The notes below the pieces were generated by a model, which did not search any database, was not told where the DNA came from, and saw only the letters and a program-made list of their open reading frames with translations. From positions 1-64,000 of the forward strand of contig JAFUFU010000025.1 in the NCBI GenBank assembly GCA_017469785.1: DNA of 64,000 nucleotides, in the 5' to 3' direction. The first letter of the stretch is position 1, and each line of letters starts with the position of its first letter. This DNA is from Treponema sp. (GTDB lineage: Bacteria > Spirochaetota > Spirochaetia > Treponematales > Treponemataceae). The position numbers and the translations under genes were made by a program. Shown here piece by piece: positions 14,484 through 56,139 of the stretch.

Positions 14484-15153
14484 ATGGTATTCGATATAGA
14501 GATGTACGCTAGGAAGCTTGCTTCCAGAAATACAGGTGGACAGGCATCAAAGGCTTCTAACATCGGTGAAGTATGTCAGTTCGCTGCTGCTGGTAAAGAG
14601 ATGGGCAAAAAATCCCTCTCTGAAATCGCTATGAGCTACGGCTATGTCTATGTCGGACAGATTGCCCTCGGTGCAAATCCTGCACAGGCTCTTTTAGCAA
14701 CCGTAGGTTGCGACACATCCAGGAAGCAGAGGCTTACAACGGTCCGTCACTCATCATCGGATACGCTCCCTGAGAGCTCCACGGTGTTAAGGGCGGTATG
14801 AACCACTGTCAGGACGAAATGAAGGCAGCCGTAAAGGCCGGTTACTTAGGGAGCGACCGCCTGTGGCGGGCAAAACCTGTGAGACAGGTTTTGAGCGATT
14901 CTCCGAGCAGCTATGCTGCGAAGGGAACCTCTTCAGCTTCAACCCGGCCCTCAAGGCAGAAGGCAAGAATCCGTTCACCCTCACTTCAAAAGAAGGCGAC
15001 GGAACTTACCAGGCATTCCTCAACAACGAGACACGATACTCAGCTCTTACACGCAAGTTCCCAGAGCGAGCTAAGGTTCTCTTCGACCGCAACGAACAGG
15101 CTGCTAAGGACAGATTCGTTCACTTGCAGAAGCTGGTGGAGTTGTATAAGTAA
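14484..15153 (+). pseudogene. C-terminal fragment of PFOR, copy 2, interrupted
   Basis: It begins and ends at the same codons as copy 1 and keeps the ARKLASR insert. Two further changes break the frame. About 14692-14714 replaces the KVI codons with a stretch holding the hairpin GCAACC-GTA-GGTTGC (14697-14711). A 77-bp three-hairpin element (14847-14923) lies between the codons for Tyr and Asn of GYWNL. Outside these it is very close to copy 1, so the damage is recent. It is not a functional enzyme. Confidence 0.92.
14847..14923 (+). repeat. three-hairpin element E1
   Basis: Begins TAGGGAGCGA. Hairpins: CCGCC-TGT-GGCGG; AAAACCTGT-GAG-ACAGGTTTT; linker GAGCGATTCTCCGA; GCAGC-TAT-GCTGC. Comparison with PFOR copy 1 defines both ends exactly, and no target-site duplication is seen. 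Related elements are at 27951, 41164, 41394, 41477 and 56055. Confidence 0.9.
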
Positions 15154-15198
15154 GATGTTTGTCATTGGGCGAAATGCCCGATGATGACTGGTAAAGTG

Positions 15199-15241
15199 AA
15201 CGCCCCTTGTAAGGAGATTTCCTTGCTGGGGGCGTTTTTTT
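15199..15241 (+). terminator. terminator carried with PFOR fragment, copy 2
   Basis: AACGCCCC...GGGGGCGTT followed by T6 with an inner AAGGA/TCCTT stem, the same design as at 3774. Confidence 0.85.
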
Positions 15242-15285
15242 GTTGATTACGAAATCCAGATATAACCAAAAATAATTTTTTCTTT

Positions 15286-15320
15286 AGTGTCGTTCTATGA
15301 CACTCTCCGTGTGATATAAT
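15286..15320 (+). promoter_or_regulatory. operator dyad and -10 box of cassette 1
   Basis: AGTGTCgttctatGACACT (15286-15304) is a perfect 6-bp dyad. TATAAT follows at 15315-15320, so the dyad centre lies at the -35 position and no good -35 hexamer exists. This suggests dependence on, or blocking by, a dyad-binding protein. Related dyads lie at 28807-28825 and 31213-31231, the latter next to the WYL regulator gene. The -10 box overlaps the ATG at 15319, so translation must start later. Confidence 0.7.
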
Positions 15321-15348
15321 GAATCAACTTACACAAGCGGATGTGTCT

Positions 15349-15639
15349 ATGCTCATATTTCTTGTTCTGATTGTGATTGTCGTTCTCGTATGCATTGGTT
15401 CTGGCAGAGGCGATTCGTCTTATGCTCACAAGTATCATTCATCTGATTATGGAAACGAAAATAATTCGCTTGGGTATGCTTATCTTGACGATGGACTCGA
15501 TAAGGCGGGCATGGAGCTTCTTATGGAAGACGATGACATCCGTGAAGAATTCCGTGATGAAGTTGAATATGACTTTTATGATGAAGTCGATGAGACTATC
15601 TACGATGACGATATTCGGGATGAATTCTGGGAATTTTAG
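15349..15639 (+). CDS. small acidic membrane protein, cassette 1
   Basis: A 96-aa protein starting at ATG 15349, because the upstream ATG at 15319 lies within the -10 box. One hydrophobic helix (residues about 1-17, LIFLVLIVIVVLVCIG) is followed by a Ser/His/Tyr segment and a strongly acidic tail (EDDDIREEF, DEVEYDFYDEVDE) predicted to be on one face of the membrane. A paralogue with the same plan is at 28918 and a truncated one at 31232. The gene is 8 nt before the ATP-grasp gene. Function unknown; the acidic tail could be a protein ligand or a modification target. Confidence 0.65.
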   Translation: MLIFLVLIVIVVLVCIGSGRGDSSYAHKYHSSDYGNENNSLGYAYLDDGLDKAGMELLMEDDDIREEFRDEVEYDFYDEVDETIYDDDIRDEFWEF

Positions 15640-15647
15640 GAGGACTT

Positions 15648-16508
15648 ATGATACAAGCAATTATTTTTCCATGTAATATTTTCTCATTACAAGAAGTGGA
15701 CTTTGATTTTCAAAACGAGTATACAGCTGCTATTGAAGTCGACGGATTTGAAATCTACTTCTATGACTACGAGCAGTTTGTTCGTGATGGTATTTTGCGC
15801 TTAAATCGGAGACCGGAAGAAAAAATTTCGGCAGTACTTCGTGGCTGGATGCTGAATGCAGAACTTTACGAACGTTTTTATAATTTTCTCTTAGAGCGGA
15901 ACATTAATCTGATTACGAATCCAGAGCAATACCGCATGATGCATCTTTTTCCGAATGTTTATCCCCTGATTGAACAAGATACTCCCGGAATACTTGTTTA
16001 TCCAGAATGTGAAAACAACTCAAAAATCAGTCTTAGTGAGATAAAGACAAAGTTCAATCGTTTTATGATTAAAGATTTCGTGAAGTCAGAGAAAGGAACA
16101 GATTTTCCGAAATTCTTTGACTCATCAATTTCTGAAGAAGATTTTTCATATTGGCTTAAAGTATTTCGTGAATACCGTGGAAAGCTTTTTACAGGTGGAT
16201 TTTGTATCAAAGAATTCGTGGATTTGAGAAAATACGGCGAACGTACTAACGAATGGCGTGTATTCTATCTGAATGGAAATATAATTTCTGTCAGCAAGAA
16301 TTCCGGTCAGCCAGACTTTGCCTCGGAAGTTCCAAAATCTCTGATTGAAAAATACAAAAATCTTCCAAGCCCTTTCTATACAGTAGACTATGCAGAACTA
16401 TCCGACAGCAACTGGAAAATTCTTGAAGCTGGCGATGGGCAGGTGAGCGGACTTTCGGATAGGCAGGATGCAATGGCTTTTTTCAGGACGATACAGGTGG
16501 GAGCGTGA
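15648..16508 (+). CDS. ATP-grasp protein of the R2K clade (DUF4343-like)
   Basis: A 286-aa cytoplasmic enzyme. The C-terminal half has ATP-grasp features: FMIKDFVKSEKG (lysine strand), CIKEFVDLRKYG, NEWRVFYLNGNIISVSKNSG and WKILEAGDGQVSGLS with the Glu-Asp metal-ligand pair. These match the R2K clade, whose RAGNYA domain has conserved lysines and which includes eukaryotic CDC123. That clade has been predicted to ligate peptides to proteins and, in bacteria, to take part in phage-host conflict. AGGAGG about 8 nt upstream supports the start. It overlaps no neighbour but ends 1 nt before the 59-aa gene. The second cassette lacks this gene. Confidence 0.75.
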   Translation: MIQAIIFPCNIFSLQEVDFDFQNEYTAAIEVDGFEIYFYDYEQFVRDGILRLNRRPEEKISAVLRGWMLNAELYERFYNFLLERNINLITNPEQYRMMHLFPNVYPLIEQDTPGILVYPECENNSKISLSEIKTKFNRFMIKDFVKSEKGTDFPKFFDSSISEEDFSYWLKVFREYRGKLFTGGFCIKEFVDLRKYGERTNEWRVFYLNGNIISVSKNSGQPDFASEVPKSLIEKYKNLPSPFYTVDYAELSDSNWKILEAGDGQVSGLSDRQDAMAFFRTIQVGA

Positions 16509-16509
16509 T

Positions 16510-16689
16510 ATGTATTTCAGAATGAAACTTATAACCGCTAATGGCAAGGTTCATGAAGAAGCTAAAGACACTTTCAAATCTTTTGAATCTGTTGTCAACG
16601 CGCTTTCGACATTAAAGAGATTTTACAAGTCGATGATTCTGTACGACGAGAATGATAATGTCGTATGGACTTATGGGCTGTTTGTTTGA
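16510..16689 (+). CDS. 59-aa hypothetical protein, cassette 1
   Basis: Starts at ATG 16510, one base after the ATP-grasp stop, with GGTGGGAG as ribosome site about 9 nt upstream. Composition is Lys-, Tyr- and Phe-rich with a likely beta-alpha-beta pattern (MKLITANGKVHEEA, FKSFESVVNALSTLKRFYKSMILYDENDNVVWTYG). Its size and tight coupling suggest a partner or substrate-presenting peptide for the ATP-grasp protein. No family recognised. Confidence 0.55.
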   Translation: MYFRMKLITANGKVHEEAKDTFKSFESVVNALSTLKRFYKSMILYDENDNVVWTYGLFV

Positions 16690-16701
16690 GAAGGAGTTGG
16701 T

Positions 16702-17385
16702 ATGGGCTGTGACATTGAATACTATCTTGACCACGATTTAAGCGGGCTTTCAGCACAGGAGTTTCTTGAAGAATTTAAACGACGTGTTGATCCTTTGCCA
16801 GTCGTGCTTACAAGGCTTCCTAAAATGTACCCGAATATGGATTGGAATAAAGGTTCTCCATACCGACATAATGCGACACTCCCGAGCTGCTGGGAAATCG
16901 ACTGTTTTCTTTACGACTTTGAAACACAATATAACAACAAGGAAGATTGCATAAACATTCGTCTGCATCATGAAAATATTCCGCATAGTTGGGAGCTTTC
17001 TTTCAATGCAAAGACAATATGCTTTTTTCCTTTTGATGATGATTGCAGCTTTCTACATGGTTCTCAGCGATGGCGGATTTTCCGTGAAGACTATCTTATG
17101 AACAGAAACAAAGAAATTGAGGAAAATATTCAGACAACATTGGAAGAAATCAGAAAATATATCGCACCAATTTTTCATTGCACAAAAATGATTGCGATTA
17201 GTGACCAGGGACTTCATCAGAAACTGAGTTGTGCAATGGATGCTGGATCTTCAATTGAGGAAGCGATTGATTGCGAAGCTGTGAAAAACGAGGGCTGTCA
17301 TGTAGTGGTGTACCAGCATGGGGAAAATAAGCGCTTTTCGTATGCAAACAAGAATGAGTTACCGGTGTGGATGGGGAGAGTGTAA
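16702..17385 (+). CDS. 'DHD' family protein of unknown function, cassette 1
   Basis: A 227-aa cytoplasmic protein behind GAAGGAG. It opens MGCDIEYYLDHDLSGLSAQEFLEEFKRR and later has APIFHCTKMIAISDQ. The 214-aa protein at 29236 has the matching VYYFDHDIPIKNTAQFLNEIEKR and VPFFHSTKVIAATN, so they are paralogues. Conserved Tyr-Asp-His-Asp near the N-terminus and the Phe-His pair could be metal or catalytic residues, but no family is recognised. It closes the four-gene cassette behind the WYL-type operator. Confidence 0.65.
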   Translation: MGCDIEYYLDHDLSGLSAQEFLEEFKRRVDPLPVVLTRLPKMYPNMDWNKGSPYRHNATLPSCWEIDCFLYDFETQYNNKEDCINIRLHHENIPHSWELSFNAKTICFFPFDDDCSFLHGSQRWRIFREDYLMNRNKEIEENIQTTLEEIRKYIAPIFHCTKMIAISDQGLHQKLSCAMDAGSSIEEAIDCEAVKNEGCHVVVYQHGENKRFSYANKNELPVWMGRV

Positions 17386-17398
17386 TGGGAAGAAAATT

Positions 17399-17429
17399 TT
17401 TACACAGAAAGCTATTTGAGTGTTATAAT
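17399..17429 (+). promoter_or_regulatory. promoter of YhaO/YhaN-like operon
   Basis: TATAAT at 17424-17429 with TTTACA at 17399-17404 (spacer 19) or TTACAC (spacer 18). AAGGA follows before ATG 17451. It marks the start of a new operon after the ATP-grasp cassette. Confidence 0.5.
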
Positions 17430-17450
17430 TGATGATAAGGATTTCAAGCT

Positions 17451-18542
17451 ATGAGAATAATACATTGTGCAGACATACATGCTGATTCAAAAATGGAATC
17501 TCATTTTTCAAAAGAACAAGCTGATGAGCGAAGAAAAGAAATTGTTGATAGTTTTGCAAGTATGGTTCAATTTGCAAAGAAAAACAATGTACGAGTAATA
17601 ATTATTGCAGGAGATTTGTTTGATACAAAAACTTCTCAACAAAAAAGCATAAAAAAAAGAATTTCATATATAATCAGCCAGAATCCAGAAATTGATTTTC
17701 TTTATCTTCGAGGCAATCATGATGAAGATGTTGATTTTGCTATGGATGAAGATATTCCTAATTTAAAAAGATTTTCAAAAGATAAATGGATTTGTTATTC
17801 TTATGAAAATATAAATATCTACGGACACGAATTCGGAAAGAATATTCCTGTAAGTTCATATAGTCAGCTTGCACTTGATTCAAGCAAATTTAATATCGTT
17901 ACTTTGCACGGGCAAATTGCCGAATACGAAGCCAAAGATGGCGCACCTGTAATTTCCCTTCCTCATCTGACCAATAAGAATATAGACTACATTGCACTTG
18001 GTCATATTCATGATTATAAAACGGAGAAATTAGATTCTCGCTGTTCATGGTGTTATTCAGGTTGTTTAGAGGGAAGAGATTTTAGTAAAGGTGAGTTTGG
18101 AGAAAAAGGTTTCGTTCTATTAGATATTACCGATAAACTTTCTACTAAATTTATTCCCATGTCTCAAAGAAAAATACATGAAATATATGTAAACCTTAAT
18201 GGTACAATGTCATATAACGAAATAATGACGGCAATATCTAGAAAAGTTGAAAGCATTCCGTCAAAAGATATTGTTCAAGTAAATTTAGTTGGTAAAATAT
18301 CAGAAGAAACAGAAATTGAGGAAGATTCCTATCAAGATTCTTTGAAGTCTACATACAATTTCTATTTTATCAGAGTAAAAAACAATACAAAACCTAAAAT
18401 TGATTATGCAAAATATGAAAGAGATATTTCGTTAAAAGGAGAATTTATTCGACTTGTAAAATCTCAAAATGACTTATCCGATGACGAAAAATCAAAAATT
18501 ATAATCACAGGAATTAAGGCACTTTCAGGGAGATTGGAGTAA
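17451..18542 (+). CDS. metallophosphoesterase, YhaO/SbcD-like
   Basis: A 363-aa calcineurin-fold phosphoesterase with the metal motifs in order: DIHAD (residues 7-11), GDLFD, GNHDE, then a histidine in TLHGQ and GHIHDY. SbcD/Mre11-type enzymes cut DNA ends together with an SbcC/Rad50 ATPase. The ATPase gene follows with a 1-nt overlap (TAATG). The short C-terminal region fits YhaO rather than full SbcD. Its place before a helicase and DUF2290 gene suggests DNA processing in defence or repair. Confidence 0.85.
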   Translation: MRIIHCADIHADSKMESHFSKEQADERRKEIVDSFASMVQFAKKNNVRVIIIAGDLFDTKTSQQKSIKKRISYIISQNPEIDFLYLRGNHDEDVDFAMDEDIPNLKRFSKDKWICYSYENINIYGHEFGKNIPVSSYSQLALDSSKFNIVTLHGQIAEYEAKDGAPVISLPHLTNKNIDYIALGHIHDYKTEKLDSRCSWCYSGCLEGRDFSKGEFGEKGFVLLDITDKLSTKFIPMSQRKIHEIYVNLNGTMSYNEIMTAISRKVESIPSKDIVQVNLVGKISEETEIEEDSYQDSLKSTYNFYFIRVKNNTKPKIDYAKYERDISLKGEFIRLVKSQNDLSDDEKSKIIITGIKALSGRLE

Positions 18543-21154
18543 TGAAATTAATAAAGGCTCATATTATAAATTTTGGAAAAATTCATAACTTTGTAATTGA
18601 TTTTGAAAGTGGGGTAAATTCCTATATTTACGAAAATGGATGGGGTAAAACTACACTTTCTGTTTTCATAAAAGCAATGTTTTATGGAATGGAACATACT
18701 ACGAAATCTTTAGAGAACAATGAATTAAAAAAATATCTTCCATGGCAAGGTGGACTTTATGGTGGCAGTCTAACTTTTTCCTATAATAACAAAAATTATA
18801 TCGTTAGTAGAATATTCGGAAAAAAGAAAAATGAAGATACTTTTGAGCTTCGTGATTTAACAACAAATAAAATTTCATCAGATTTTTCAGAGAATCTTGG
18901 AATCGAGTTATTTGGTGTAAATAAAGAAACTTATGAGAGAAGTATTCATGTTACACTGGAAGAAACTCCAGCTGGCTCTAGTGATATTTCTGCAAAATTA
19001 AACAATCTTATTGAAAATGCTGATGTTTCAAACTTTGATGAGGCAATTTCAAATTTAAAAAATAAATCTAAAGTTTTAGTAGCAATGAAAGGAAAAGGTG
19101 GTGAAATCGCGCAAATTCAAGGAAGAATTGATGAATGTCGAGAAAAATTATCTGAAATCGATGCTAAAATTTTTCAGAATGAAGAATATGAGAAAAAACT
19201 TGTTGAACTCTCACAAGATATTTCTGAAGCAAAAAAGAAACAGAATAATTTAACAGACCAACTTGCATTAAATGCAAAATATGAAAGCAAATTGCGTTAT
19301 GAACAACTAAAAAATGATTTAGAAAAGGCAAAGCAAATAAAAGCTGAACTTTTAGCTTTCTTTAACGGACAACTTCCAAATGAAGAGACATTGGAAAAAA
19401 TAGATAGAATATCATCGGAATTTACAACCGTTGAATCTAATATAAAAAATAATTCTGTCACACAATCTGAAAAAGATCAGTATGAAGCGTTAAAGAATTA
19501 TTTTGCAGGAGATATTCCTTCTAAAGAAAAAATTGATTTGTGTTTAAAAACGGATAATGATTTTAAAAGATTCAAACAAGAAGAAAATGAGCGAAAATTA
19601 ACTCTTCAAGAATCAGAAGAATATAATTCTCTTAAACAAAAATTCTCGGGAACAGATATTTCAGAAGAAAAAATAAATGAATGTGTCACTAATGTTTCAG
19701 AAGTACAGGACTTAAAAAACGAAATTTCAAGAATCTCTTCTGATATTCAATCAAAGAAAGTTGACTTGAAGCTTTCGCAACAAATAAAACCAAAAAATGC
19801 GAAAAGAATTATATTCTTATCGATCGCTTTCTTTGCTCTTGCATTGGACATTGCCGCATTTATTTTGAAAATGAATATTGTTTTAAGCTTTTCAGGTGCT
19901 TTCTTCTTCGTATTATTTATGATACTCGGTCTTGTTTCAAAAAATCAGGGTTCAGACACTTCTTCCTTAAATAATGAAATCGCTACTTTAGAAACAAAGT
20001 TATCTGAATTATCTGACAAATGTTCCATAAAAGAAAAAAACTATAAAGCTTTCATCTCAAAGTTTACTGAAGATTCAGGCTCAGAACTTTCAGCGATAAA
20101 CAAAATAAGTATTGAATTTAATAGGTATACGACACTGATTCAAAAAGAAAACAATTATAATTTATGGCTGAAAAGTCAAAGTAAAAAACAAGATGATTAT
20201 GAATCTGAATTAAAGACATTTGTAAGAACATTTTGCAAAACAGAAGATATAACTGCAGTCTCTGCCTCAATTCAAGTTTTGACTGAAAAATTAAATCGAT
20301 TTTCAGAATTATCAAAAAAAATAAATGTAGATTCTAAAAATATCGATTCTCAAAAAGAAATGAAAGAAAAACTCGGTGACATTCTTTCTCAATATAAAAC
20401 TGAGAAAACACTTTCGTTTGCTGAACAGGTACAAGAAATACATAATAAGCTCAACGACATAAAAAATGCAGATGAGTTGATAAACTCAAATTACCAAAAA
20501 ATAGCAGATTTTGAGGGGAACAGTGAAAATGATATAGATTTTCTTGTTTCATTAACGAAGCCTGAGAAATCAACAGAAGAGTTACAGACAAGCTTATCAG
20601 ATGTTGTAAATCAGATTAACGGCTTAAATGCTGATGTTGCAAATTATCAAAAAATTATAAATGATAATCTTTCTGAAACTGAAAAAAAGGAAGACATTGA
20701 AAACGAAATTGAAAGTCTTTCTAAGAGGAAACAAGATAAATCTGAGGAATATAATATTCTTCTAAAAACACAAGAATTTCTTACAAAAGCAAAAGAACAG
20801 CTGGATGCAAATTACAGTGATCCTATGAAAGAAAACTTTGCAAAATATGTAAAAATGATGGGGGGAAACTTAAATCTTGTCATTGATACAGATCTAAAAG
20901 TCTCTCTTGATGAAAATGGTATGCTTCGTGAAAGCGAATTCTTAAGCGAAGGATATAAAGATATTGTAAATTTCTGTTCTAGAATGGCCTTGATAGATGC
21001 TTTATTTAAAGAAGAGAAGCCTACTGTTATACTTGACGACCCATTTGTCAATCTCGATGATGATAAAATTCCAAAAGCATTGCAATTAGTAAGAAACATG
21101 TCAAAAGAAAAACAGGTTTTATATTTTGCTTGCCATAAAAGCCGAGAGATATAA
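18542..21154 (+). CDS. SbcC-like coiled-coil ATPase with membrane segment (YhaN-like)
   Basis: An 870-aa SMC/Rad50-type protein. Walker A is ENGWGKTTLS (residues 31-40). Long heptad-rich coiled coils follow, then two hydrophobic helices at about residues 420-465, a second coiled coil, a signature-like LSEGYKDIVNFCSRMALIDAL and Walker B PTVILDDPFVNLDD (about 826-839). There is no CxxC zinc hook; instead the paired transmembrane helices sit where the hook would be, as in Bacillus YhaN. The ATPase is thus probably tethered to the inner membrane. It forms a complex-like pair with the phosphoesterase upstream. Confidence 0.85.
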   Translation: MKLIKAHIINFGKIHNFVIDFESGVNSYIYENGWGKTTLSVFIKAMFYGMEHTTKSLENNELKKYLPWQGGLYGGSLTFSYNNKNYIVSRIFGKKKNEDTFELRDLTTNKISSDFSENLGIELFGVNKETYERSIHVTLEETPAGSSDISAKLNNLIENADVSNFDEAISNLKNKSKVLVAMKGKGGEIAQIQGRIDECREKLSEIDAKIFQNEEYEKKLVELSQDISEAKKKQNNLTDQLALNAKYESKLRYEQLKNDLEKAKQIKAELLAFFNGQLPNEETLEKIDRISSEFTTVESNIKNNSVTQSEKDQYEALKNYFAGDIPSKEKIDLCLKTDNDFKRFKQEENERKLTLQESEEYNSLKQKFSGTDISEEKINECVTNVSEVQDLKNEISRISSDIQSKKVDLKLSQQIKPKNAKRIIFLSIAFFALALDIAAFILKMNIVLSFSGAFFFVLFMILGLVSKNQGSDTSSLNNEIATLETKLSELSDKCSIKEKNYKAFISKFTEDSGSELSAINKISIEFNRYTTLIQKENNYNLWLKSQSKKQDDYESELKTFVRTFCKTEDITAVSASIQVLTEKLNRFSELSKKINVDSKNIDSQKEMKEKLGDILSQYKTEKTLSFAEQVQEIHNKLNDIKNADELINSNYQKIADFEGNSENDIDFLVSLTKPEKSTEELQTSLSDVVNQINGLNADVANYQKIINDNLSETEKKEDIENEIESLSKRKQDKSEEYNILLKTQEFLTKAKEQLDANYSDPMKENFAKYVKMMGGNLNLVIDTDLKVSLDENGMLRESEFLSEGYKDIVNFCSRMALIDALFKEEKPTVILDDPFVNLDDDKIPKALQLVRNMSKEKQVLYFACHKSREI

Positions 21155-21183
21155 GGAAAAACATTTACTTGGAGGAATAAAGT

Positions 21184-27363: not shown

Positions 27364-28385
27364 ATGGTATTCGATACAGAGATGTACGCTAGGAAGCTTG
27401 CTTCCAGAACTACAGGTGGACAGGCATCAAAGGCTTCTAACATCGGTGAAGTCTGATAGGGCAGCTCCGATTAACATTTGAGACGATTAATCGGAGCTGC
27501 CCTGACAATTTGCCGTGCAAATACGGACAAATTGCGACATTAAAGTAAACAATCAAAAAATCGCAATCGATTTTCTGATTGTTTTTTATGTTCGCTGCTG
27601 CTGGTAAGGAAATGGGCAAAAAGTCACTCTCTGAAATCGCTATGAGCTACGGCTATGTCTATGTCGGACAGATTGCTCTCGGTGCAAATCCTGCACAGGC
27701 TCTCAAAGTCATCCAGGAAGCAGAGGCTTACAATATGAAAGCTCGAAAACTGTTTTATTACAGCGCAACATGGATGTTGCGGTGCCTTAAAAAGACAGAA
27801 AAAACTGCGACAAGTTGAAAACTTGTCGTTACGGCACGGATGCCGAAATACGCTCCATGTGAGCTCCACGGTGTCAAGGGCGGTAGCTAGAATCGAAGAT
27901 TCGCAACCACTGTCAGGACGAGATGAAGGCAGCTGTAAAAGCCGGTTACTTAGGGAGCGACCGCCTGTGGCGGTCAAAACCTGTGAGACAGGTTTTGACC
28001 GATTCTCCGAGCAGCTATGCTGCGAAGGGAACCTCTTCAGCTTTAACCCGGCCCTCAAGGCAGAAGGCAAGAATCCGATTAAGCAAGAAACTTTATTTTT
28101 AGATAATTGATTTGCGAGTTTTCGGTAAGAAAACTCGTTAGCAACCGAAGGTTGCGTGCATTCCTCAACAACGAGACACGATACTCAGCTCTTACACGCA
28201 AGTTCCCGGAGCGAGCGCAATGCAAGTTTGTTGTTCGTCTACGAAAATTGCTTGTATAAGCAAAGAAAGTGTTACTGCGAGTTTTCGGCACGAAAACTCG
28301 TTAGTGAGCGTAGCGAACGACAAACGAACAGGCTGCTAAGGACAGATTCGTTCACTTGCAGAAGTTGGTGGAATTGTATAAGTAA
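27364..28385 (+). pseudogene. C-terminal fragment of PFOR, copy 3, heavily interrupted
   Basis: Same start and end as copies 1 and 2, and the same ARKLASR insert, but about 1.02 kb long because at least six palindromic stretches have replaced or entered the coding sequence. These lie at about 27456-27588 (three hairpins, the largest with a 17-bp stem), 27734-27846 (several hairpins), 27885-27904 (GAATC-GAA-GATTC), 27951-28027 (element E2, same site as in copy 2), 28078-28156 (CGAGTTTTC hairpin plus GCAACC-GAA-GGTTGC) and 28217-28322. Remaining coding pieces are nearly identical to copy 1. It shows insertion and replacement stages within one sequence. Confidence 0.92.
27951..28027 (+). repeat. 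three-hairpin element E2
   Basis: 77 bp, at the same codon position and of the same length as E1. It differs by changes such as GGCGGG to GGCGGT and GAGCG to GACCG next to hairpins. Shared position means the insertion predates the split of copies 2 and 3; copy 1 lacks it. Confidence 0.9.
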
Positions 28386-41131: not shown

Positions 41132-41536
41132 AATTTTCTCCTCAGTTAAATTCCTCACAGATAGGAAGCGTTAAAAAATTGCACGAGGTGCAATTTTAGC
41201 GAGTCTCCCGAAGAGCTATGCTCGTAGGGCCACAGAATTCACAGAGCATTTTTTTGAAATACAAAGTTTTATACCTCAAACTTGTTTATTTTTACTACAT
41301 GACTGAGAAATATAGCTTCCCAGACTTTTTACTCTCTGTGTACTCCCAAGCTCTGTGAGGAATTTTTATTTCCCGCTCGCTGCCTCTCTCCGCGCTCGAA
41401 GCACAGCTTCGAACGAGACTCGCTAAAAACTCGTCTCACGAGTTTTTACCTGCTTACGCAGGCCGCTCGCTTCCGCGGAAAAATCACAGATTTTTCCGAG
41501 ACTCGCTAAAAACTCGTCTCACGAGTTTTTACCTGC
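41132..41536. repeat. livG-livF spacer filled with three-hairpin elements E4, E5, E6
   Basis: E4 (about 41164-41228, plus strand): AAAATTGCAC-GAG-GTGCAATTTT, linker AGCGAGTCTCCCGA, GAGC-TAT-GCTC. E5 (about 41394-41472) and E6 (about 41477-41557) on the minus strand: CCTGC-GTAA-GCAGG, AAAAACTCGT-GAG-ACGAGTTTTT, linker AGCGAGTCTCG, then TCGAAGC-TGT-GCTTCGA in E5 or GGAAAAATC-TGT-GATTTTTCC in E6. AGCGAGCGG recurs at each element border. No gene lies here; the second CTCTGTG repeat is at 41334-41369. Confidence 0.85.
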
Positions 41537-42331
41537 TTACGCAGGCCGCTCGCTACCCAAATATGCTTTTATTACTTCCGGGTTCTGCTGGATTTCTTCC
41601 GGTTTTCCGCTTGCCAGCACCCTTCCGTAGTTCAATACATAAAGCCGCTCGCAGATTCCCATGACCAGCTTCATGTCGTGCTCAATCAAAAGGATTGTGA
41701 GGTGGAATTCCTTGCGGATAAAAGAAATAAGCTCCATAAGCTCCTTTGTTTCCTGAGGGTTCATGCCCGCCGCAGGCTCGTCTAGAAGAAGAATCTGTGG
41801 CTGACTGGCCAATGCACGGCAGATTTCAAGTTTTCGCTGCTCGCCGTAAGGAAGATTCTTTGCCAGCTCCGTTTCTTTTTCGCCAAGTCCGAAAAGCTTT
41901 AAGAGGCTTCTGACCCGATTTGTCATCATCTCCTCGTCTTTTCGGAATTTAGGCGTTCGGAAGAGAATGTGAAGGGGGTTTGCCTTTCGCTGGGCGTGCA
42001 TGGCAATCCGCACGTTGTCCGCAACGGTAAGGTTTCCGAAAAGGCGGATATTCTGGAAAGTGCGCGCAATGCCGATTTTGTTGAGCTGGGCCGGCGGCAT
42101 TTTGTTTACGATGTGAATCCGGTTCTTTTTGTCAGTGTAGGTAATCTGCCCGCTGGTGGGTGTGTAGACTCCTGAAAGCATGTTGAAAACGGTGGTTTTT
42201 CCCGCTCCGTTGGGGCCGATTAAGCCTACAAGCTCGCCTTTGTATAATTCAAGATTCAAGTCGCTTACTGCCCGCAAGCCGCCGAATACAATCGAAATGT
42301 CGGAAGCCTTTAAAATGACTTTTTCGCTCAT
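41537..42331 (-). CDS. livG: branched-chain amino acid ABC transporter ATP-binding protein LivG
   Basis: A 264-aa ATPase with VFGGLRAVSDLNLELYKGE, Walker A GPNGAGKTTVF, signature LPYGEQRKLEICRAL, Walker B ILLLDEPAAGMNP and the LivG-type insertion after Walker A. The last residues (GSERPA) and the stop codon are encoded inside repeat element E6: GGT AGC GAG CGG CCT GCG TAA, so the original C-terminus, probably close to KAYLG plus a stop, was replaced. The start overlaps livM by 4 nt. Confidence 0.95.
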   Translation of the reverse strand: MSEKVILKASDISIVFGGLRAVSDLNLELYKGELVGLIGPNGAGKTTVFNMLSGVYTPTSGQITYTDKKNRIHIVNKMPPAQLNKIGIARTFQNIRLFGNLTVADNVRIAMHAQRKANPLHILFRTPKFRKDEEMMTNRVRSLLKLFGLGEKETELAKNLPYGEQRKLEICRALASQPQILLLDEPAAGMNPQETKELMELISFIRKEFHLTILLIEHDMKLVMGICERLYVLNYGRVLASGKPEEIQQNPEVIKAYLGSERPA

Positions 42332-47590: not shown

Positions 47591-47594
47591 TTCA

Positions 47595-48416: not shown

Positions 48417-48500
48417 CTTGAAAACTCCTTGTAAAATTTTTGGAAACCTGTACGGATTTCCGTTGTATGAGTATGGGCAAACCTTTGCCCGATAATCACC

Positions 48501-49301: not shown

Positions 49302-49595
49302 ATGTGCAGGGCAACGATTTATGACGCTAGGAACAATTTTTCGGCTCTGGTTAAAAAGGCCGAGGGTGGCGAGCCAGTGGAGCTTACGCGGCATGACAAA
49401 CCGGTGGCTGTAATTATCAGCTACGAGGAATACGAAAAGCGTGGCAAAAAGAAGAGTTTTTTTGAGCGCTGGGAAAAAACTCGCAAAAAATATGCGGATG
49501 TTTTTTCTGACCCGACTTTTGAAGGGCTTCCGATTCCTGAAGATGGATATCCGGATGAAGCCTATGAAAAAAGAATCAGGGAAATGTGGGGGTAA
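49302..49595 (+). CDS. Phd/YefM-family antitoxin
   Basis: A 97-aa antitoxin. Start ATG 49302 lies behind GGGGGTG; the upstream frame from 49188 lacks a ribosome site. N-terminal Phd fold RATIYDARNNFSALVKKAEGGEPVELTRHDKPVAVIISYEEYEK binds DNA and the toxin; the C-terminal part (FSDPTFEGLPIPEDGYPDEAYEKRIREMWG) should cap the VapC-like toxin encoded 2 nt downstream. Confidence 0.88.
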   Translation: MCRATIYDARNNFSALVKKAEGGEPVELTRHDKPVAVIISYEEYEKRGKKKSFFERWEKTRKKYADVFSDPTFEGLPIPEDGYPDEAYEKRIREMWG

Positions 49596-49597
49596 AA

Positions 49598-50023
49598 ATG
49601 AGTGCCGTTTATTTGCTGGATACAAATGTTATCTCAGAGTTTTCAAAGCCGATTCCAAATCAGCATACTTTGGAAATGATAAGAGAACACGAAGATATGT
49701 GTGCGATTTGCGCAACGGTTTGGGAAGAAGCGGTTTATGGTTACGAGTCAATGCCGGAAGGTAAGCGAAAAAATGCTGTTTTGGATACAATACTAGATAT
49801 AAAAGAATCTTACGACATTCTTCCTTACGATGACTTTGCCGCCAAAATTTGTGGTGAAATCCGGTCAAAGTGTAAAAAAGCAGGAAAGCCGGCACCATTT
49901 TACGACAGCCAGATTGCCGCCACAGCGATTGCAAACGGCATGGTTTTAATCACCCACAACACCGAAGACTTCGCCGCACTCTGCGAAAACTCCATGCTAA
50001 AAGTGGAAGACTGGTGGGGATAA
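49598..50023 (+). CDS. VapC-like PIN-domain toxin
   Basis: A 141-aa PIN ribonuclease: catalytic acids in YLLDTNVISE (Asp 8), WEEAVYG, FYDSQIAATAIANG and LITHNTEDF. Start ATG 49598 behind GGGGGT; an in-frame GTG at 49586 overlaps the antitoxin end. Forms a type II toxin-antitoxin pair with the Phd-like gene. Cleaves RNA when free. Confidence 0.88.
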   Translation: MSAVYLLDTNVISEFSKPIPNQHTLEMIREHEDMCAICATVWEEAVYGYESMPEGKRKNAVLDTILDIKESYDILPYDDFAAKICGEIRSKCKKAGKPAPFYDSQIAATAIANGMVLITHNTEDFAALCENSMLKVEDWWG

Positions 50024-50053
50024 AAAAATACCCGCAAGACAAAACTTGCGGGT
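50024..50053 (-). terminator. terminator of livJ
   Basis: ACCCGCAAG-ACAAAA-CTTGCGGGT (50030-50053) with a T-run on the minus strand after it. It also separates the convergent VapC gene. Confidence 0.85.
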
Positions 50054-50071
50054 TCACGTCGTGAAGTTCGA

Positions 50072-51205
50072 CTACGGATTTACTGTTGTGTTATAAACTG
50101 TTGTGAGTTTTCCGTCTGCACCTTTTACAAGCTCAACGATAACTGCGCCCTTGACCGGGTTGTGCTTTTCGTTGAATGTGAGGTGGCCGGTAACATAGTC
50201 GCCATTTGTTGCCTCAAGGGCAGTGCGGACTGCCTCAGAATCTGAACTGCCAGCCTTTTCGATAGCGTCGCGGAGCATGTAAACTGAGTCGTAGCCCAAA
50301 GCTGCGAAAGAAGTCGGTGTGAGGCTGTATTTTGCCTTGTAGTTCGTTACGAAATTCTGAACTTTTGGCTCTGTTGAGTCAGCCGCATAGTGATTAGAGT
50401 AGAATCCGTTGAGAACCTCGTCGCCAGCGTTTTCGGTGAGACCGTCCCATCCGTCAGCGCCGACAATTGGAGTGTTGATGCCCTGAGCGCGGAGCTGTTT
50501 TACGATGAGGGCGACCGTTGAGTAGTAGTCAGGAAGATAAACTACATCCGGGTTTGCGTTCTTGATTTTTGTGAGCTGGGCGTTGAAGTCTTTGTCGCCG
50601 GTTGAGTATGTTTCCAGAGAAATGATTTCGCCGCCGTTAGCCTCGAAAGATGCCTTGAAGTTCTCTGTGAGACCCACTGAATAGTCATTTGAAATGTCGT
50701 AGAGAATTGCGGCTTTTTTTGCGCCAAGAGTTTCAGAAGCGAATTTTCCGCCGACAGTTCCCTGGAAAGGATCATCGTAGCAGGCGCGGAAGATGTAGTT
50801 TCCTGCGTCTGTGAGAGCCGGTGCTGTTGCGGCAGGAGCAATCTGAACGATTTTCTGAGCCTGTGCCAGCGGGCTGATTGCGATTGCGCATCCTGATGTG
50901 AGTGAGCCGATGATGAGCTTAACGCCGTCTTTTGTGACGAGCTTTTTGTAAGCGGAAACAGATTTTTCTGCCGCGCCCTCATCATCTTCAGCGATAAGTT
51001 CAATCTGCTTGCCGTTGATTCCGCCGGCCGCGTTGATTTCGTTTACGGCAAGTTCGATGCCGTTTTTGCAGTCACCGCCGTATACAGCGTACTGTCCTGA
51101 GAGAGGGCCGACTGAGCCGATTTTGATAGTTGAACCTTTTGAGTTACATCCGATTAAAGACAAGACAGCGATTGTCAGTGCCGCAATGCTTTTGACCATT
51201 TTCAT
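50072..51205 (-). CDS. livJ: branched-chain amino acid ABC transporter substrate-binding protein
   Basis: A 377-aa type I periplasmic binding lipoprotein (LSLIGC lipobox, Cys near 20). Marks: IKIGSVGPLSGQYAVYGGDCKNGIELAVNEINAAGGINGKQIELIAEDDEG, then LIGSLTSGCAIAISPLAQ. TGGAGG before ATG 51205 favours it over GTG 51220. Partner of LivHMGF, though 6 kb away. Confidence 0.95.
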   Translation of the reverse strand: MKMVKSIAALTIAVLSLIGCNSKGSTIKIGSVGPLSGQYAVYGGDCKNGIELAVNEINAAGGINGKQIELIAEDDEGAAEKSVSAYKKLVTKDGVKLIIGSLTSGCAIAISPLAQAQKIVQIAPAATAPALTDAGNYIFRACYDDPFQGTVGGKFASETLGAKKAAILYDISNDYSVGLTENFKASFEANGGEIISLETYSTGDKDFNAQLTKIKNANPDVVYLPDYYSTVALIVKQLRAQGINTPIVGADGWDGLTENAGDEVLNGFYSNHYAADSTEPKVQNFVTNYKAKYSLTPTSFAALGYDSVYMLRDAIEKAGSSDSEAVRTALEATNGDYVTGHLTFNEKHNPVKGAVIVELVKGADGKLTTVYNTTVNP

Positions 51206-51274
51206 TTTGTGCCTCCACAATTTTATATGAAGACAATTTTAATGAAACTCTACAGGCTTGTCGATAAGGCGCTC

Positions 51275-51607
51275 TTACTGGAGCTTTTTCCACTCAGAAA
51301 CGATGAAAATGCCGTCTTTAAGGACATTCAGTCCGTTTCCCTGTGATTTGTCGATTGTGCCGGTGAATTGCAGGGCAAAGCCCTGCTCCTTTTCGATATC
51401 CTCGATTGTGAAAGGAGCGTTTTCTTCGACCTGCAGCGTGTACAGATATCCGTCGGCAGTTTCGATTCCCGGGAATTCAAATGGAGCGTTTCCGTAATAT
51501 TTGATATGCCCTGTCACAGTTTCAGGAGCGCGGCCTCCGAATGCAGAGACAATGGTCACCGAGGCCAGGAGAAGCAAAGCGATGCAAATTGATTTTTTAT
51601 TTTTCAT
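51275..51607 (-). CDS. small exported beta-rich protein
   Basis: A 110-aa protein with a signal peptide (ICIALLLLASVTIVSAFG). The mature part (TVTGHIKYYGNAPFEFPGIETADGYLYTLQVEEN... LQFTGTIDKSQGN) looks like a small OB- or beta-barrel fold. It lies 7 nt downstream of the M30-like peptidase gene on the same strand and may be cotranscribed. Conserved in treponemes as far as I recall. Confidence 0.55.
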   Translation of the reverse strand: MKNKKSICIALLLLASVTIVSAFGGRAPETVTGHIKYYGNAPFEFPGIETADGYLYTLQVEENAPFTIEDIEKEQGFALQFTGTIDKSQGNGLNVLKDGIFIVSEWKKLQ

Positions 51608-51614
51608 CTTAAAC

Positions 51615-53411
51615 CTACTTAATATAAAGGAATAATTTCATGCCGGTTTTGGTATAACCGCTCTTTGAACTGAAGGTAATCGTGTAGCTGTTTGTTCCAG
51701 ACGGAATGACAGCGCTTTTTCGTTTTAAGGCCATTCCATATGACTGAGAAATGGAGGTCAAAAGAGTATTTGCGTTAAATACCAGCGGCCCGAAATACTT
51801 GTATTGTGAATCAATGTAAGAAGCGCCGATTTCACTTTCACTGTATTGCCTATAGGTAAGTGACTTCCCAGGAATTAGCGCGGCGTTCAAGTCATACATT
51901 GATGAAGACTCCCACAGGTTGATGGCTGTCATAGGATAATCGTAAGTCGTGCTTTCGCTTGAATAGGTGATTGTTTTGGCCGCATCTTTATTGAAGGTGT
52001 ATTCTGAATCTTTACCGTAGCAGGCCTTGATGAACTGAGCGAACAAATCGTCAAAAGTGAAGCTTGTTCCATTTAATTCGTTGACGGCCGCCACGATACA
52101 TTCGTTGTTTGTCTTTTCGTTCGACATCATTTCCTTGACCAGGGCCGCTCCCCCGTACTGACGGCAGAGCCATGAGCCGAAAGCGTAGGCATTTGCATAG
52201 GCAAGCGATGAATTGTCGTAACCGCGGATGCCGCATCCGAAGTATTCAATCATGAATTGCAACATTCTGGACTTTGGAGAATCCTTGTCTTCAATCGTGT
52301 AGCCTTTGTCCGTCAGGAATTTCTGCATCATGTCTTCACAGAGCATGGAAAGCATTTCGTTGAAATTTGTGTCGGTGTCATTGCCTTTCACACCGAAGTG
52401 AACCATGTGCTGGAATTCATGTGCCAGCGTGGAAATAATTGTATTAACAGATTCCTCCTGAGTTGCGAAGAATGAATCGACATAAAAATACTTTCCCTGA
52501 TTTGAATAGGAATAAAGGTCTTTTGCATAATAGTCGCCGGATGAGAAGAAGCCAAGGACATTGCCCTCTTCACCGTCTGCGAACAAGTCATAAATTACGA
52601 TATTGATTTTTTCACCAGTATCGCTCACTTCTGTCATGGGGCTGGTAGTGTATTCTCCCGAAAGAAGGGAGGTGGAAACATAGTTTGTATAAATTTCATC
52701 TGATTCTTTGCCGAAAACATTGGTCACGACCGGATAAAAGGCAGCGAAAGCGGCGGCGAATTTTCCTGCCAGATTCTGTTTTTCGGTATCGCTTGTAAGG
52801 TATTTATCACTGTTCACGACCCACACATTGCAGGTGTCGTTGACGGCCCAGAGTGTCGCGGACGCTTCGCGGCGGGCTGTATCATCGCTACTTGAGTCTG
52901 CAATAAATACGCTCTTTGTGGTGCCAACCTCTCGGACGATTTGAGTTACCGAATATGATGGAGAAGCGATTGATCTGGCGGAAGAGAATTCATTTGGATT
53001 CGGTTTGAAATTGTAGCCGACGTAATGCTTGAACCTTCCTGAGGATACTTTTTTTGCGGCCGCTACTTCCTGTAAAGGCTCTTCTGATTCTTCTGCCGCA
53101 CTGCGGTTTGAATTCGTGCTGGACATATATTTGATGTAGTCTGCTGCGATGGAAGAGTCCGAGGTGTTGACTTCTGCAAGGTAGAGATTTTTGCCGCCGA
53201 TATCTCCGGAAATCGTAATGGAATTCACGGATTCATCAACGATAAATGTGTCTCTTCCGCTGGAATTGTATGTCCATGTATCTGTTGATGTGAAGGAAAC
53301 ATCGTCGAGACCAAGAAGTCTTCTGATGGTATCGCTTCCTTCGCCTGAAAAATCACATCCTGTCAGCCCGAGCAGTGAAAGTGAGATAAGTCCGAGAATA
53401 AGTTTTTTCAT
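51615..53411 (-). CDS. M30-like zinc metallopeptidase lipoprotein 1
   Basis: A 598-aa lipoprotein (LTGC lipobox). The zinc motif is STLAHEFQHMVHFG (HExxH as HEFQH), with a downstream acidic NEMLSMLCEDMMQ as likely third ligand region, as in hyicolysin-type M30 peptidases. CGGAG before ATG 53411 supports that start over GTG 53417. Paralogue at 53500: same order of domains, GDISGKNLY near the N-terminus and FGSWLCRQYGGAALVKEMMSN. Probably surface or periplasmic. Confidence 0.85.
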   Translation of the reverse strand: MKKLILGLISLSLLGLTGCDFSGEGSDTIRRLLGLDDVSFTSTDTWTYNSSGRDTFIVDESVNSITISGDIGGKNLYLAEVNTSDSSIAADYIKYMSSTNSNRSAAEESEEPLQEVAAAKKVSSGRFKHYVGYNFKPNPNEFSSARSIASPSYSVTQIVREVGTTKSVFIADSSSDDTARREASATLWAVNDTCNVWVVNSDKYLTSDTEKQNLAGKFAAAFAAFYPVVTNVFGKESDEIYTNYVSTSLLSGEYTTSPMTEVSDTGEKINIVIYDLFADGEEGNVLGFFSSGDYYAKDLYSYSNQGKYFYVDSFFATQEESVNTIISTLAHEFQHMVHFGVKGNDTDTNFNEMLSMLCEDMMQKFLTDKGYTIEDKDSPKSRMLQFMIEYFGCGIRGYDNSSLAYANAYAFGSWLCRQYGGAALVKEMMSNEKTNNECIVAAVNELNGTSFTFDDLFAQFIKACYGKDSEYTFNKDAAKTITYSSESTTYDYPMTAINLWESSSMYDLNAALIPGKSLTYRQYSESEIGASYIDSQYKYFGPLVFNANTLLTSISQSYGMALKRKSAVIPSGTNSYTITFSSKSGYTKTGMKLFLYIK

Positions 53412-53499
53412 AAACACTCCGTGTGTAAATCCTTACAAAAATCAGAAGAAGTTCTGAAATCTGTAAGTTATTATAACTTATTCTTAAAATAAATTCCTA

Positions 53500-55125
53500 C
53501 TATTTCACGTAAATATACATCAACAGGCTTGAATTTGTTTTTCCTGAATCGGAGTTGAAAGAGAGCGTCACAGTATTTCCGTCAATTTCGCCGAATGTTT
53601 TGAGGAAGATTCCATAAGACGGGGCGATTTCTGTAATCGCGTCGTTTTCAAAGATGGTCATTGTCTCGCCGAGATTAGTGATTTCCGTGAGATTGATATT
53701 GCGCATGGGGTAGTCATAGCCGTCTTCTGAGCGTATTGTCTGGGGAGCGTCCTTGTTCCTTGCGCTCAGTTCACCATCGAAGCAAGCCGCGATGAATTCC
53801 TGGAACAAGTCATCAAAAGTGAATGCGCGGCCTTCGATTGCGCTTACGGCGGCCGCAATGCATTCATTGTTTGCCTTTCCGTTCGACATCATTTCTTTTA
53901 TGAGAGCCGCTCCGCCGTATTGACGGGCAAGCCATGCTCCGAAAGCGTAGGCGTTTGAATATGACTGGAGCGATGTTGCCTGTCCCCGGATTCCGGCGTC
54001 ATAGTAGTGTGAAAGGAATCTTCTGAGCCTGTTTTTTGGTGTGTATGCGTCCTGAACATTGAGGTATTCCTGCATCATGTCCTCGCAGAGCATGGAAAGC
54101 ATTTCGTTGAAATTCGAGTCGCTTGCCTGTTGATTCATAGCCTTGACGGAAAAGTTAATCATGTGCTGGAATTCATGGGCGATGGTCGAAAGTGTGTATT
54201 CAAGATTTTTTGTTGCCAGATATGAGTCAATGTAGAGATATTTTCCTTCGTTTGAGCTGTCGATTTCTTTTCCGCTTACCGTAAGGCCGTTCTTGAAATA
54301 GTCGCGGTTTGAGAACATTCCGATTACCTTGCCTGAAATGCCGTCATTGTACAGGTCGTACATTACGATGTTCACTTTTGTGCCAGTCTCGCTGAACTCA
54401 TTCATAGAAGCAAAGTCGCCCTCTGATGTCACATAAATCAAGTCAGATTCCTTTCCGAAGACCTTGCATACAACCGGATGCATTTTGGCGAATTTCTGCG
54501 CGTAAGTTTCAGCAACTTCTTTTCGCTTGCTCTGGGGAATGTGTTTTTCGTCATCCACAATCCACACATTGCAGATTTCATTTACAGCATAGAGGGTTGC
54601 TGATTTTTTTATGGAAGAATCTTTATATTCAGAAAGAAACAATGTCTTTTTTGACTCGAAAGGAACTTCCTCGATTCTGTGAGCTTTTCTGGCCGGTTCA
54701 CTGGCGGCAGCGCGCGCGCTTGATGCTGAAAAAACCGGAGTGATGTCATCTTCATGGTGGCAGGTAAAAAATTCCTCGTCAGCGTGGGAATGTGTGTCAT
54801 GCGTGATGTTGCGCGAAACAACTGCGGCTGAGCGCGCGTTCTGTGAAACGATGTATCTGACGTATTTGCCTGAGATTTCGTTTGAGCTTGTGTTTACCAT
54901 GGCGTAGTAAAGATTTTTTCCTGAAATATCGCCGGAGAGGGTAACAGAGGCGACAGAGGCATCAACCGTATAAATCTCAGAATTTGAGGAAACCGAAAAT
55001 GACGCTGAATTTGAGGGAGTGATTGTTGCCGATGAGGAAGAAGGTGACTCGAATGAATCTTCCTCATCGAACTGGCAGGCGACCAAAGAAAACGCCACAA
55101 AGCAGACAAAAAGTAATCTCTTCAT
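53500..55125 (-). CDS. M30-like zinc metallopeptidase lipoprotein 2
   Basis: A 541-aa lipoprotein (SLVAC lipobox). HEFQHM in STIAHEFQHMINFS and NEMLSMLCEDMMQ give the zinc site. A His/Asp-rich loop near residue 110 (HDTHSHADEEFFTCHHEDD) is absent from paralogue 1 and may bind metal. The tandem arrangement shows a local duplication. The two together may process surface proteins or host substrates. Confidence 0.85.
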   Translation of the reverse strand: MKRLLFVCFVAFSLVACQFDEEDSFESPSSSSATITPSNSASFSVSSNSEIYTVDASVASVTLSGDISGKNLYYAMVNTSSNEISGKYVRYIVSQNARSAAVVSRNITHDTHSHADEEFFTCHHEDDITPVFSASSARAAASEPARKAHRIEEVPFESKKTLFLSEYKDSSIKKSATLYAVNEICNVWIVDDEKHIPQSKRKEVAETYAQKFAKMHPVVCKVFGKESDLIYVTSEGDFASMNEFSETGTKVNIVMYDLYNDGISGKVIGMFSNRDYFKNGLTVSGKEIDSSNEGKYLYIDSYLATKNLEYTLSTIAHEFQHMINFSVKAMNQQASDSNFNEMLSMLCEDMMQEYLNVQDAYTPKNRLRRFLSHYYDAGIRGQATSLQSYSNAYAFGAWLARQYGGAALIKEMMSNGKANNECIAAAVSAIEGRAFTFDDLFQEFIAACFDGELSARNKDAPQTIRSEDGYDYPMRNINLTEITNLGETMTIFENDAITEIAPSYGIFLKTFGEIDGNTVTLSFNSDSGKTNSSLLMYIYVK

Positions 55126-55270
55126 AACAAAATGCTCCTAACCGTGCTTTCGCACAAAATCACTTTTTGACTGACTTATTTATGGAACATTTTGTTTAAG
55201 CTTTATGAATAGTTACTTAAATTTATGCAAACTATTATAATATAATTCAAATAAAAATCAAGGACTTGCC

Positions 55271-56009
55271 ATGAATATTTGTCTTTTTACTCACGAAGAA
55301 ATTAGGAATCCGCTTCCCAAAAATGATGATCGGGCAAAACACATCATTAAGGTCCTTCATAAAAATACCGGTGATACCTTTGACGCCGGAATCATCGGCT
55401 GGGGCTGCAGGAACTGCCACGATTACAGAAATTTCCCAATCTGGGGAGATTTTCTTTGATTTTGAGCCGAAGACGGCTGGCAAAAAGCTTTATCCCCTCA
55501 CGCTCATTATCGGGTTTCCACGGCCCATCCAGCTCAGGCGGCTTTTGCGGGATGTCGCGGGGCTGGGTGCTCAGAAGGTAATTCTATGCGCTACCGATTT
55601 GACAGAAAAATCCTATCTTGATTCAAACGTGGTCGCAGACGGAAGCGCATATAAAATGCTTTTGGACGGAACTGCTCAGGCTGCCAGCACCCATGTTCCC
55701 GTTCTGGAAGTGGCAAAATCGCTGGACGAGCTTCTAAAGTCCGCAAATTTAGCCTGGGAAAACAGCTCAAAAATTGCCCTTGATAATCGGCGAGCTTCTT
55801 CGTCACTGCATGATTTTCTGGCCCACGAGTCGGCTCATTCGGTGATTGCGGCCATCGGAAGCGAGCGGGGGTGGACTGAGCGGGAGAGGGATTTACTTGA
55901 GTCCGCGGGATTTTCCCTCTGCTCCATGGGAACACGAATCCTTCGCACCGAGACTGCCGCAACGGTTGCAAGCTCAATCATTCTTGACGCGATGGGCTTT
56001 CTTCAATAG
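55271..56009 (+). pseudogene. RsmE-like 16S rRNA methyltransferase, frameshifted
   Basis: The first frame starts at ATG 55271 behind AAGGA (MNICLFTHEEIRNPLPKNDDRAKHIIKVLHKNTGDTFDAGIIG). After about 55402 the RsmE sequence continues in the +1 frame (AAGTATITEISQSGEIFFDFEP... LTLIIGFPRPIQLRRLLRDVAGLGAQKV, ALDNRRASSS, IAAIGSERGWTERERDLLESAGF... RILRTETAA). One extra base, probably T in ATCGGCTGGGGC, accounts for this. RsmE methylates U1498 of 16S rRNA. A second rsmE starts at 63578, so this copy may be dispensable. Confidence 0.85.
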
Positions 56010-56040
56010 AATATTTATCAGTTTTACAAGTATCCTTAAT

Positions 56041-56139
56041 GGTCGATTAGCTCATAGGGAGCGACCCGTCAGGGGCAAAACCTGCGAGGCAGGTTTTGAG
56101 CGATTCTCGGAAAAATCTATGATTTTTTCGTGGTAGAGT
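56041..56139 (+). pseudogene. 5' part of outer tRNA-Val-like gene, with element E3 inside
   Basis: GGTCGATTAGCTCA (56041-56054) and GTGGTAGAG (56130-56138) are the acceptor and D-arm of a tRNA-Val, separated by a 75-bp three-hairpin element (56055-56129). Its 3' part is about 56370-56390 (TTCGATCCTAGTATCGACC). Left flank plus acceptor (56031-56047) is complementary to 56384-56400 over 17 bp. Confidence 0.8.
56055..56129 (+). repeat. three-hairpin element E3 in tRNA
   Basis: TAGGGAGCGA, CCC-GTCA-GGG, AAAACCTGC-GAG-GCAGGTTTT, linker GAGCGATTCTCGG, GAAAAATC-TAT-GATTTTTTC. Compared with E1, both sides of the GAG stem changed (T-A to C-G) and the last stem is entirely different. Confidence 0.88.

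Follow-up and report, generated by a model that had tools for sequence, protein, structure and literature searches.

A stretch of 64,000 nucleotides from Treponema sp. (contig JAFUFU010000025.1; hereafter the window) holds six copies of a small hairpin element, which lie within pseudogenes, in a tRNA gene fragment, and within or next to other repeats. This raises the question of what kind of element can settle in such different places and keep the same fold. The first-pass annotation had marked all six copies, and all are present with slightly shifted ends. The element is 62 to 91 bases long and comprises two or three hairpins. Its biological reading at that time, as a structured element related to IS200/IS605 or repetitive extragenic palindromic (REP) elements, missed the main point, namely that intact genes carry the element within their reading frame. 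It is probably a palindromic element of gut treponemes that inserts cleanly before a G, and lies in frame in full-length genes as a likely translated extra loop; as folded single-stranded DNA, it would serve as the substrate of a transposase that the searches given below did not find. Such an element would be selfish and non-autonomous. The copies inside genes would be translated rather than spliced and tolerated as an extra loop, and an enzyme supplied in trans would use the fold in the form of single-stranded DNA. Insertion would occur by clean joining before the G, and copies would persist in genes whose reading frame remains open. By analogy, this would resemble the way of life of Rickettsia palindromic elements (RPEs) and of REPs inside genes.

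A stop-free frame runs through the element in the full-length genes of RecG, UvrC, CarB, MurB, CobB, and an ABC exporter. The frame is likewise open in an ABC-F gene truncated at the contig start and in a 779-amino acid frame without a Pfam match, which runs off its stretch. In RecG, UvrC, CobB, the ABC exporter, and ABC-F, the element has Pfam matches on both sides. Its place in MurB is immediately ahead of the FAD-binding domain match; in CarB, it coincides with the end of the oligomerisation domain match, which stops at position 55 of 80. Compared with solved structures by phmmer, MurB, CarB, and RecG align on either side of the element. CarB shows no clear net gain in length; hence, its native linker may have been lost at the element site. 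The two matches listed among the 13 for murB in the host genome are the full-length gene and another that covers the repeat peptide only. As placed by a simple open reading frame (ORF) picker, the 65 listed copies (64 plus the weak match C15:30884, E 9.1e-6) fall between ORFs in 37 cases, within an ORF of 80 or more amino acids in 14, and across an ORF end in 14. Four host-genome copies provide a stop codon by their TAG. The 88 long copies have on average 2.64 open frames of six, whereas dinucleotide shuffles average 2.29 and reach at most 2.47 in 40 runs; the 26 short copies have 1.85 compared with 1.74, which is no clear difference. The coding-friendliness of the long copies is suggestive only.

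RecG illustrates this habit best by a series of linker forms just before the QGDVGSGKT motif. The linker occurs without an insert (e.g., G020 and G074), with another palindromic repeat only (G022), with this other repeat and the element (G000), with the element and without most of the other repeat (G023), and with the element at a different position (G061). Among the best 120 of 2178 public RecG proteins, 14 contain the element peptide, 12 in forward and two in reversed orientation and at several places, and the others show no insert or another repeat only. From these sequences, we infer at least three insertions into the linker: two sites were entered in forward and one or two in reverse orientation. 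The other in-frame palindromic repeat reads GDFKGQ.PLGEGVA.N..GG.SEGETSP in RecG, and the element is inserted near its end. This repeat is found in loci L285, L287, and L289, with similar flanks in L012, L017, and L020.

The exact ends and the missing target duplication, which had been described for PFOR and for the tRNA gene, are confirmed for both, herein by comparison with the intact tRNA at 56203 in the case of the tRNA-Val fragment. In PFOR, 77 nucleotides lie between T and GG without duplication, and the empty counterparts are the intact PFOR gene on another contig (G000:C50) and the fragment at 3144–3707. In the tRNA-Val fragment, 75 nucleotides are placed between A and G. In murB, the insert measures 63 nucleotides (21 codons) at CTCACAGA^G, which is the same target as that of the copy at 41162. 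The relative G061 has the outer CACAGAG palindrome in murB and no element, and in G020 and G022, murB has no element and little or none of the palindrome. Hence, all three checked sites (PFOR, tRNA-Val, and murB) display a clean insertion before a G.

A wider set of 140 distinct sites was kept from 209 once similar flanks had been removed. By motif, three further families of palindromic repeats (classes A to C, defined after the flanks had been viewed) hold 47 of these 140, and 17 adjoin another copy of the element; head-to-tail pairs exist in the window (41394/41477) and elsewhere. Preceding the TAG, the 65 unclassified sites show G in 23, A in 20, C in 14, and T in eight cases; the left flank thus has no invariant base. 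A target rule by which the element enters hairpin tips was considered. The PFOR site (GGTT-ACT^GG-AACC) and the tRNA D-arm resemble such tips, and the flanks of 131 sites are complementary beyond expectation (mean stem 3.32 versus 2.64 ± 0.09). The excess sits in the other-palindrome sites (classes B and C, less clearly A), and the 65 unclassified sites reach only 2.75 versus 2.56 ± 0.13. This rule is not claimed.

The occurrence in tRNA gene copies and in core genes would suit an intron-like element that is spliced from the RNA and, thereby, spares genes and tRNAs. Next to the tRNA-Val fragment of the window, one copy lies within a tRNA-Trp gene copy (L111, G115:C39, 520–596), and the intact tRNA-Trp is encoded on another contig of the same genome (C24:36505–36577; 28 of 30 tRNA loci were scanned). 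Since both interrupted tRNA gene copies have intact partners, nothing requires splicing, and since the frames are, in addition, open through the element in both orientations, such an intron is very improbable. The PFOR insertion, moreover, is situated in a pseudogene. Excising 70 to 79 nucleotides from the tRNA-Val copy of the window yields no tRNA accepted by ARAGORN; hence, this copy is a fragment. The same tRNA-Val insertion is seen in a metagenome-assembled Treponema genome from goat gut (L219, about 3540–3830), where a second, reversed element occupies a neighbouring tRNA-like fragment.

The fold of the element is conserved, as the first-pass annotation had held. In an alignment of 115 distinct rows, which was fitted to the covariance model and therefore favours hairpins 1 to 3, standard pairs make up 92.5% of the pair cells compared with 66.9 ± 0.6% in shuffles that ignore kinship. 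Cells changed on both sides number 657 versus 208 in these shuffles, and pairing falls to 32–46% when the partners are slid by one to three columns. Pair types show no clear increase (61 versus 58.3; reached by 83 of 500 shuffles). Perfect pairing, as had been claimed for all stems, nearly holds for hairpin 2, in which 99.3% of cells are paired, and for hairpin 1 (98.0%); pairing is lower in hairpin 3 (81.8%), which frequently carries an unpaired purine bulge. The loops, in turn, are fixed in the six window copies and not beyond them: GAG forms the loop of hairpin 2 in 47 of 112 parsed copies (of 114 distinct sequences), and the other loops include AGT, GGT, AAG, AAA, and more.

A closing helix of two base pairs, which had been overlooked, makes hairpins 1 and 2 a single folded unit. 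Columns 7 and 114 contain 100 G-C, eight A-T, two G-T, and four other combinations, and columns 9 and 112 contain 111 C-G, one T-A, and two others. Double-changed cells amount to nine in this helix versus 0.9 in shuffles. The A-T form is found with several different hairpin-2 stems, and the near-identical copies L021 and L096 have A.C and A-T at this position. Hence, the change arose more than once or via an intermediate. A two-hairpin junction closed by a short helix could, together with the third hairpin, be recognised by an enzyme that joins the element before G without target duplication. The whole would then represent a novel type of transposon made of folded single-stranded DNA, which would have become readable in several frames on both strands and could thereby live inside genes; this is put forward tentatively, as the less probable case.

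Whether the fold acts as RNA or as DNA can be judged from hairpin 2. Of its 1139 pairs in the parsed copies, 1114 are Watson–Crick pairs, three G.T, five A.C, and 17 others. RNA under selection usually retains more G.U. Because hardly any G.T is present, the constraint on hairpin 2 fits DNA better than RNA. A structured RNA with a regulatory or processing role, spread and retained for this function, would account for the strong covariation, the constant blocks, and the 37 copies between ORFs. It is nevertheless improbable given the scarcity of G.U in hairpin 2, the two orientations in RecG, a copy number that ranges from 0 to 64 within the genus, and copies in pseudogenes. The Rfam covariance models, run on six loci, match no element and find only tRNA and a cobalamin riboswitch. 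This riboswitch lies at 882–1050 of L024, near an element copy at 742–820. A modular origin, in which stems are borrowed from a family of free hairpins, left no sign: all 46 exact hairpins resembling hairpin 2 in 247 kb of host sequence (mostly around copies) fall inside spans that are marked by a permissive element pattern.

A covariance-model search of the whole genome and of other treponemes, as the first-pass annotation had proposed, reveals many more copies. With a model built from 14 copies, the host genome (3.24 Mb) contains 64 matches at E ≤ 5.1e-9, as determined from 150 scored of 2320 first-look candidates. The 35 relatives of the same genus have 0 to 45 copies each. At E ≤ 0.1, the model has matches in 27 of 59 genomes of relatives (host included). 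Of these, 23 belong to the genus, three of which show no more than a single weak match, and the remaining four, from the same order, each show a single weak match. In a phylum-wide sample with 19 candidates scored per genome, 11 of 247 genomes match at E ≤ 1e-6, namely nine of the genus (host included) and two of the same family. The genome G341, from a second genus of the family, has 13 copies that have diverged: TAGGGAGCGA is preserved, AGCGAGTCTC is preserved with few changes, and hairpins 2 and 3 have different loops. A pattern scan of a genome collection returned at least 114 stretches; the 80 listed are all from Treponema or from spirochaetes without a species name and include Treponema bryantii NK4A124 and B25, Treponema zioleckii kT3, and Treponema sp. 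C6A8. Phages were considered as a vehicle and set aside, as the exact pattern has 0 matches in viral contigs.

The relation to the transposases of IS200/IS605 or REP elements, which had been suggested together with a search for a Y1 transposase, is not borne out. Y1_Tnp (PF01797) has 0 matches in the host genome (97% complete), and the same model matches in five of 14 control genomes. A non-autonomous IS200/IS605 or REP-type element, whose Y1 (HUH) transposase has since been lost from most carriers, would explain the hairpins, the missing target duplication, and the insertion in both orientations. Within the genus, 25 of 98 genomes have Y1 matches (22 above the cut-off), and two of 30 scanned Y1 loci of other species (G018 and G115) have an element within about 1 kb. 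One of these elements, however, is 258 bp away from the matched transposase domain, the other, at about 0.9 kb, sits inside a tRNA gene copy, and neither forms an end of the gene. Neither the host nor any other of the six genomes with at least ten copies (two of them incomplete) has a Y1 match, the left flank has no invariant base, and the element and Y1 are not associated over 36 genomes: four have both, 19 the element alone, four Y1 alone, and nine neither (Fisher P 0.42). This table counts the element from E ≤ 0.1, and three of its 23 positives are weak single matches (G010, G016, and G030); recounted by hand without them, it reads 3, 17, 5, and 11 and still gives no positive association. 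A lost Y1 partner is, hence, rather unlikely.

Several observations count against the palindromic element proposed at the outset, with its folded single-stranded DNA and its joining before G. Y1 is missing in all six copy-rich genomes (host included; two are only 79% and 61% complete). IS110-type transposases occur in six of 16 genomes, three of the eight with and three of the eight without the element, and reverse transcriptases in three of 16, one of the eight with and two of the eight without; neither tracks it. Thus, Y1, IS110, and reverse transcriptase were rejected as partners, as the family search shows no link to copy number. No separated half-elements are listed for the host genome, where 150 of 2320 candidates were scored. 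The target rule is weak, with G following 63 of the 65 unclassified sites. The closing helix is absent from the covariance model and was chosen by eye after the same sequences had been viewed, and its pair types are no more numerous than in shuffles (308 of 500 reach the count). Finally, the arms of hairpin 2 could stay alike by arm-to-arm copying without selection for the fold. Correction of one arm by the other during replication (template switching) would agree with whole stems that change together and with the near absence of G.T and A.C intermediates. The two-base-pair closing helix speaks against it, as its sides lie about 25–60 nucleotides apart and covary with A.C and G.T intermediates, which arm correction within a hairpin would not give. 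The linkers and ends are conserved too. As the origin of the perfect stems, template switching is therefore considered doubtful.

Among known systems, the closest kind is, by analogy, the RPE or intragenic REP. RPEs lie in frame in many genes, as described in PMC10969869. They are likewise small palindromic repeats that are found in many unrelated protein genes, where they are reported to encode a recurring peptide. The present element is also inserted in frame in conserved protein genes. It differs by its two or three separate hairpins, its constant blocks, and its covarying closing helix, by its spirochaete host, and by being read in RecG both forward and reverse. In PMC3733652, GTAG and CGTC REPs are distinguished, the RPEs of Rickettsia conorii are given a CGTC terminus, CGTC repeats are reported from some spirochaetes, and no dedicated transposase is assigned to CGTC repeats. 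The treponeme inserts begin with TAG and end before the target G (TAG...^G) instead of having a CGTC terminus. The same paper reports REPs inside DNA-repair genes and termini that supply TAG stop codons. GTAG REPs and bacterial interspersed mosaic elements, with their REP-associated tyrosine transposases (RAYTs), share with the present element the interspersed hairpins, the TAG end that can supply a stop, and copies in DNA-repair genes (PMC3733652). The G before the TAG, however, lies outside the present insertion, where T is found in PFOR and A in tRNA-Val and murB, so that there is no fixed GTAG end; one unit has up to three hairpins, and the host genome is devoid of RAYT/Y1. Because the terminal tag disagrees with both kinds and the transposase with GTAG REPs, the element is classed as neither. 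Miniature inverted-repeat transposable elements are also short, numerous, and able to fuse in frame with genes; the present element lacks their terminal inverted repeats (ends judged by eye) and target duplication. The missing target duplication is shared with IS200/IS605-type elements, which are set apart by a fixed flanking target and an autonomous partner: herein, one near-fixed G is seen and no host Y1. A literature search among open-licence papers found no description of the element.

In the papers considered herein, palindromes that code for protein are described mainly from Rickettsia and some REP families, and for part of them, no mover is settled. Added by the present analysis are the in-frame copies in full-length genes and a RecG linker with several insertion positions in both orientations. 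A gut-bacterial genus that includes cultured species shows the same habit, with high copy number, clean empty counterparts, and RecG alleles that form a series. The treponeme system, hence, makes movement, translation, and the building of protein linkers by selfish DNA directly testable.

Within the window, the layout described earlier, namely the start TAG(G/C)GAGCG, hairpin 1, hairpin 2, AGCGANTCTC, and hairpin 3, is recovered, except that the copy at 41162 has no hairpin 1. The shared start does not extend to this copy, which begins with TAGGAAGCG, nor to that at 41394, which begins with AAGCGAGCG. The six copies are also not all separate: those at 14847 and 27951 occupy the same site of two paralogous PFOR fragments and, thus, represent one insertion that was duplicated afterwards together with the pseudogene. 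The exact pattern of the two constant blocks has two matches in the window and 0 in each of 100 shuffles. The 5′ end of the copy at 41477–41555 overlaps the 3′ end of an ORF at 41537–42331 on the reverse strand.

Table 1. Element copies and associated features in the window.
Feature	Positions	Strand	Remarks
Long-form three-hairpin element, 77 nt	14847–14923	+	Within PFOR C-terminal pseudogene fragment at T^GG
Same insertion as at 14847	27951–28027	+	In second, more decayed PFOR fragment; paralogous duplication
Short-form element (no hairpin 1)	41162–41228	+	At CTCACAGA^G within another palindromic repeat
Outer palindromic repeat, left inverted arm AAATTCCTCACAGA	41148–41161	.	Flanks the copy at 41162; from sequence
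Outer palindromic repeat, right inverted arm CTCTGTGAGGAATTT	41351–41365	.	From sequence
Long-form element, second unit of head-to-tail pair	41394–41472	-	
Long-form element, first unit of head-to-tail pair	41477–41555	-	
Long-form element, 75 nt	56055–56129	+	Inserted at A^G in D-arm of tRNA-Val gene fragment
PFOR C-terminal pseudogene fragment	14484–15138	+	Interrupted by element
PFOR C-terminal pseudogene fragment	27588–28190	+	Interrupted by element and further insertions
PFOR C-terminal fragment without element	3144–3707	+	Empty paralogous site
Intact tRNA-Val (CAC)	56203–56276	+	Adjoins the interrupted fragment

The window contains three partial PFOR C-termini that differ in their decay, while the intact gene is located on another contig; the third of them (27588–28190) holds further small hairpin insertions. 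At the contig end 3′ of the intact PFOR gene, tandem repeats with a step of eight bases are found (L029, 5312–5429). The CACAGAG-type palindromic repeat with the inverted arms AAATTCCTCACAGA/CTCTGTGAGGAATTT, which spans 41148–41365 in the window, recurs at many loci (e.g., L022, L024, L028, L091, and L101). It often holds the short-form element, and a related repeat lies in frame in murB.

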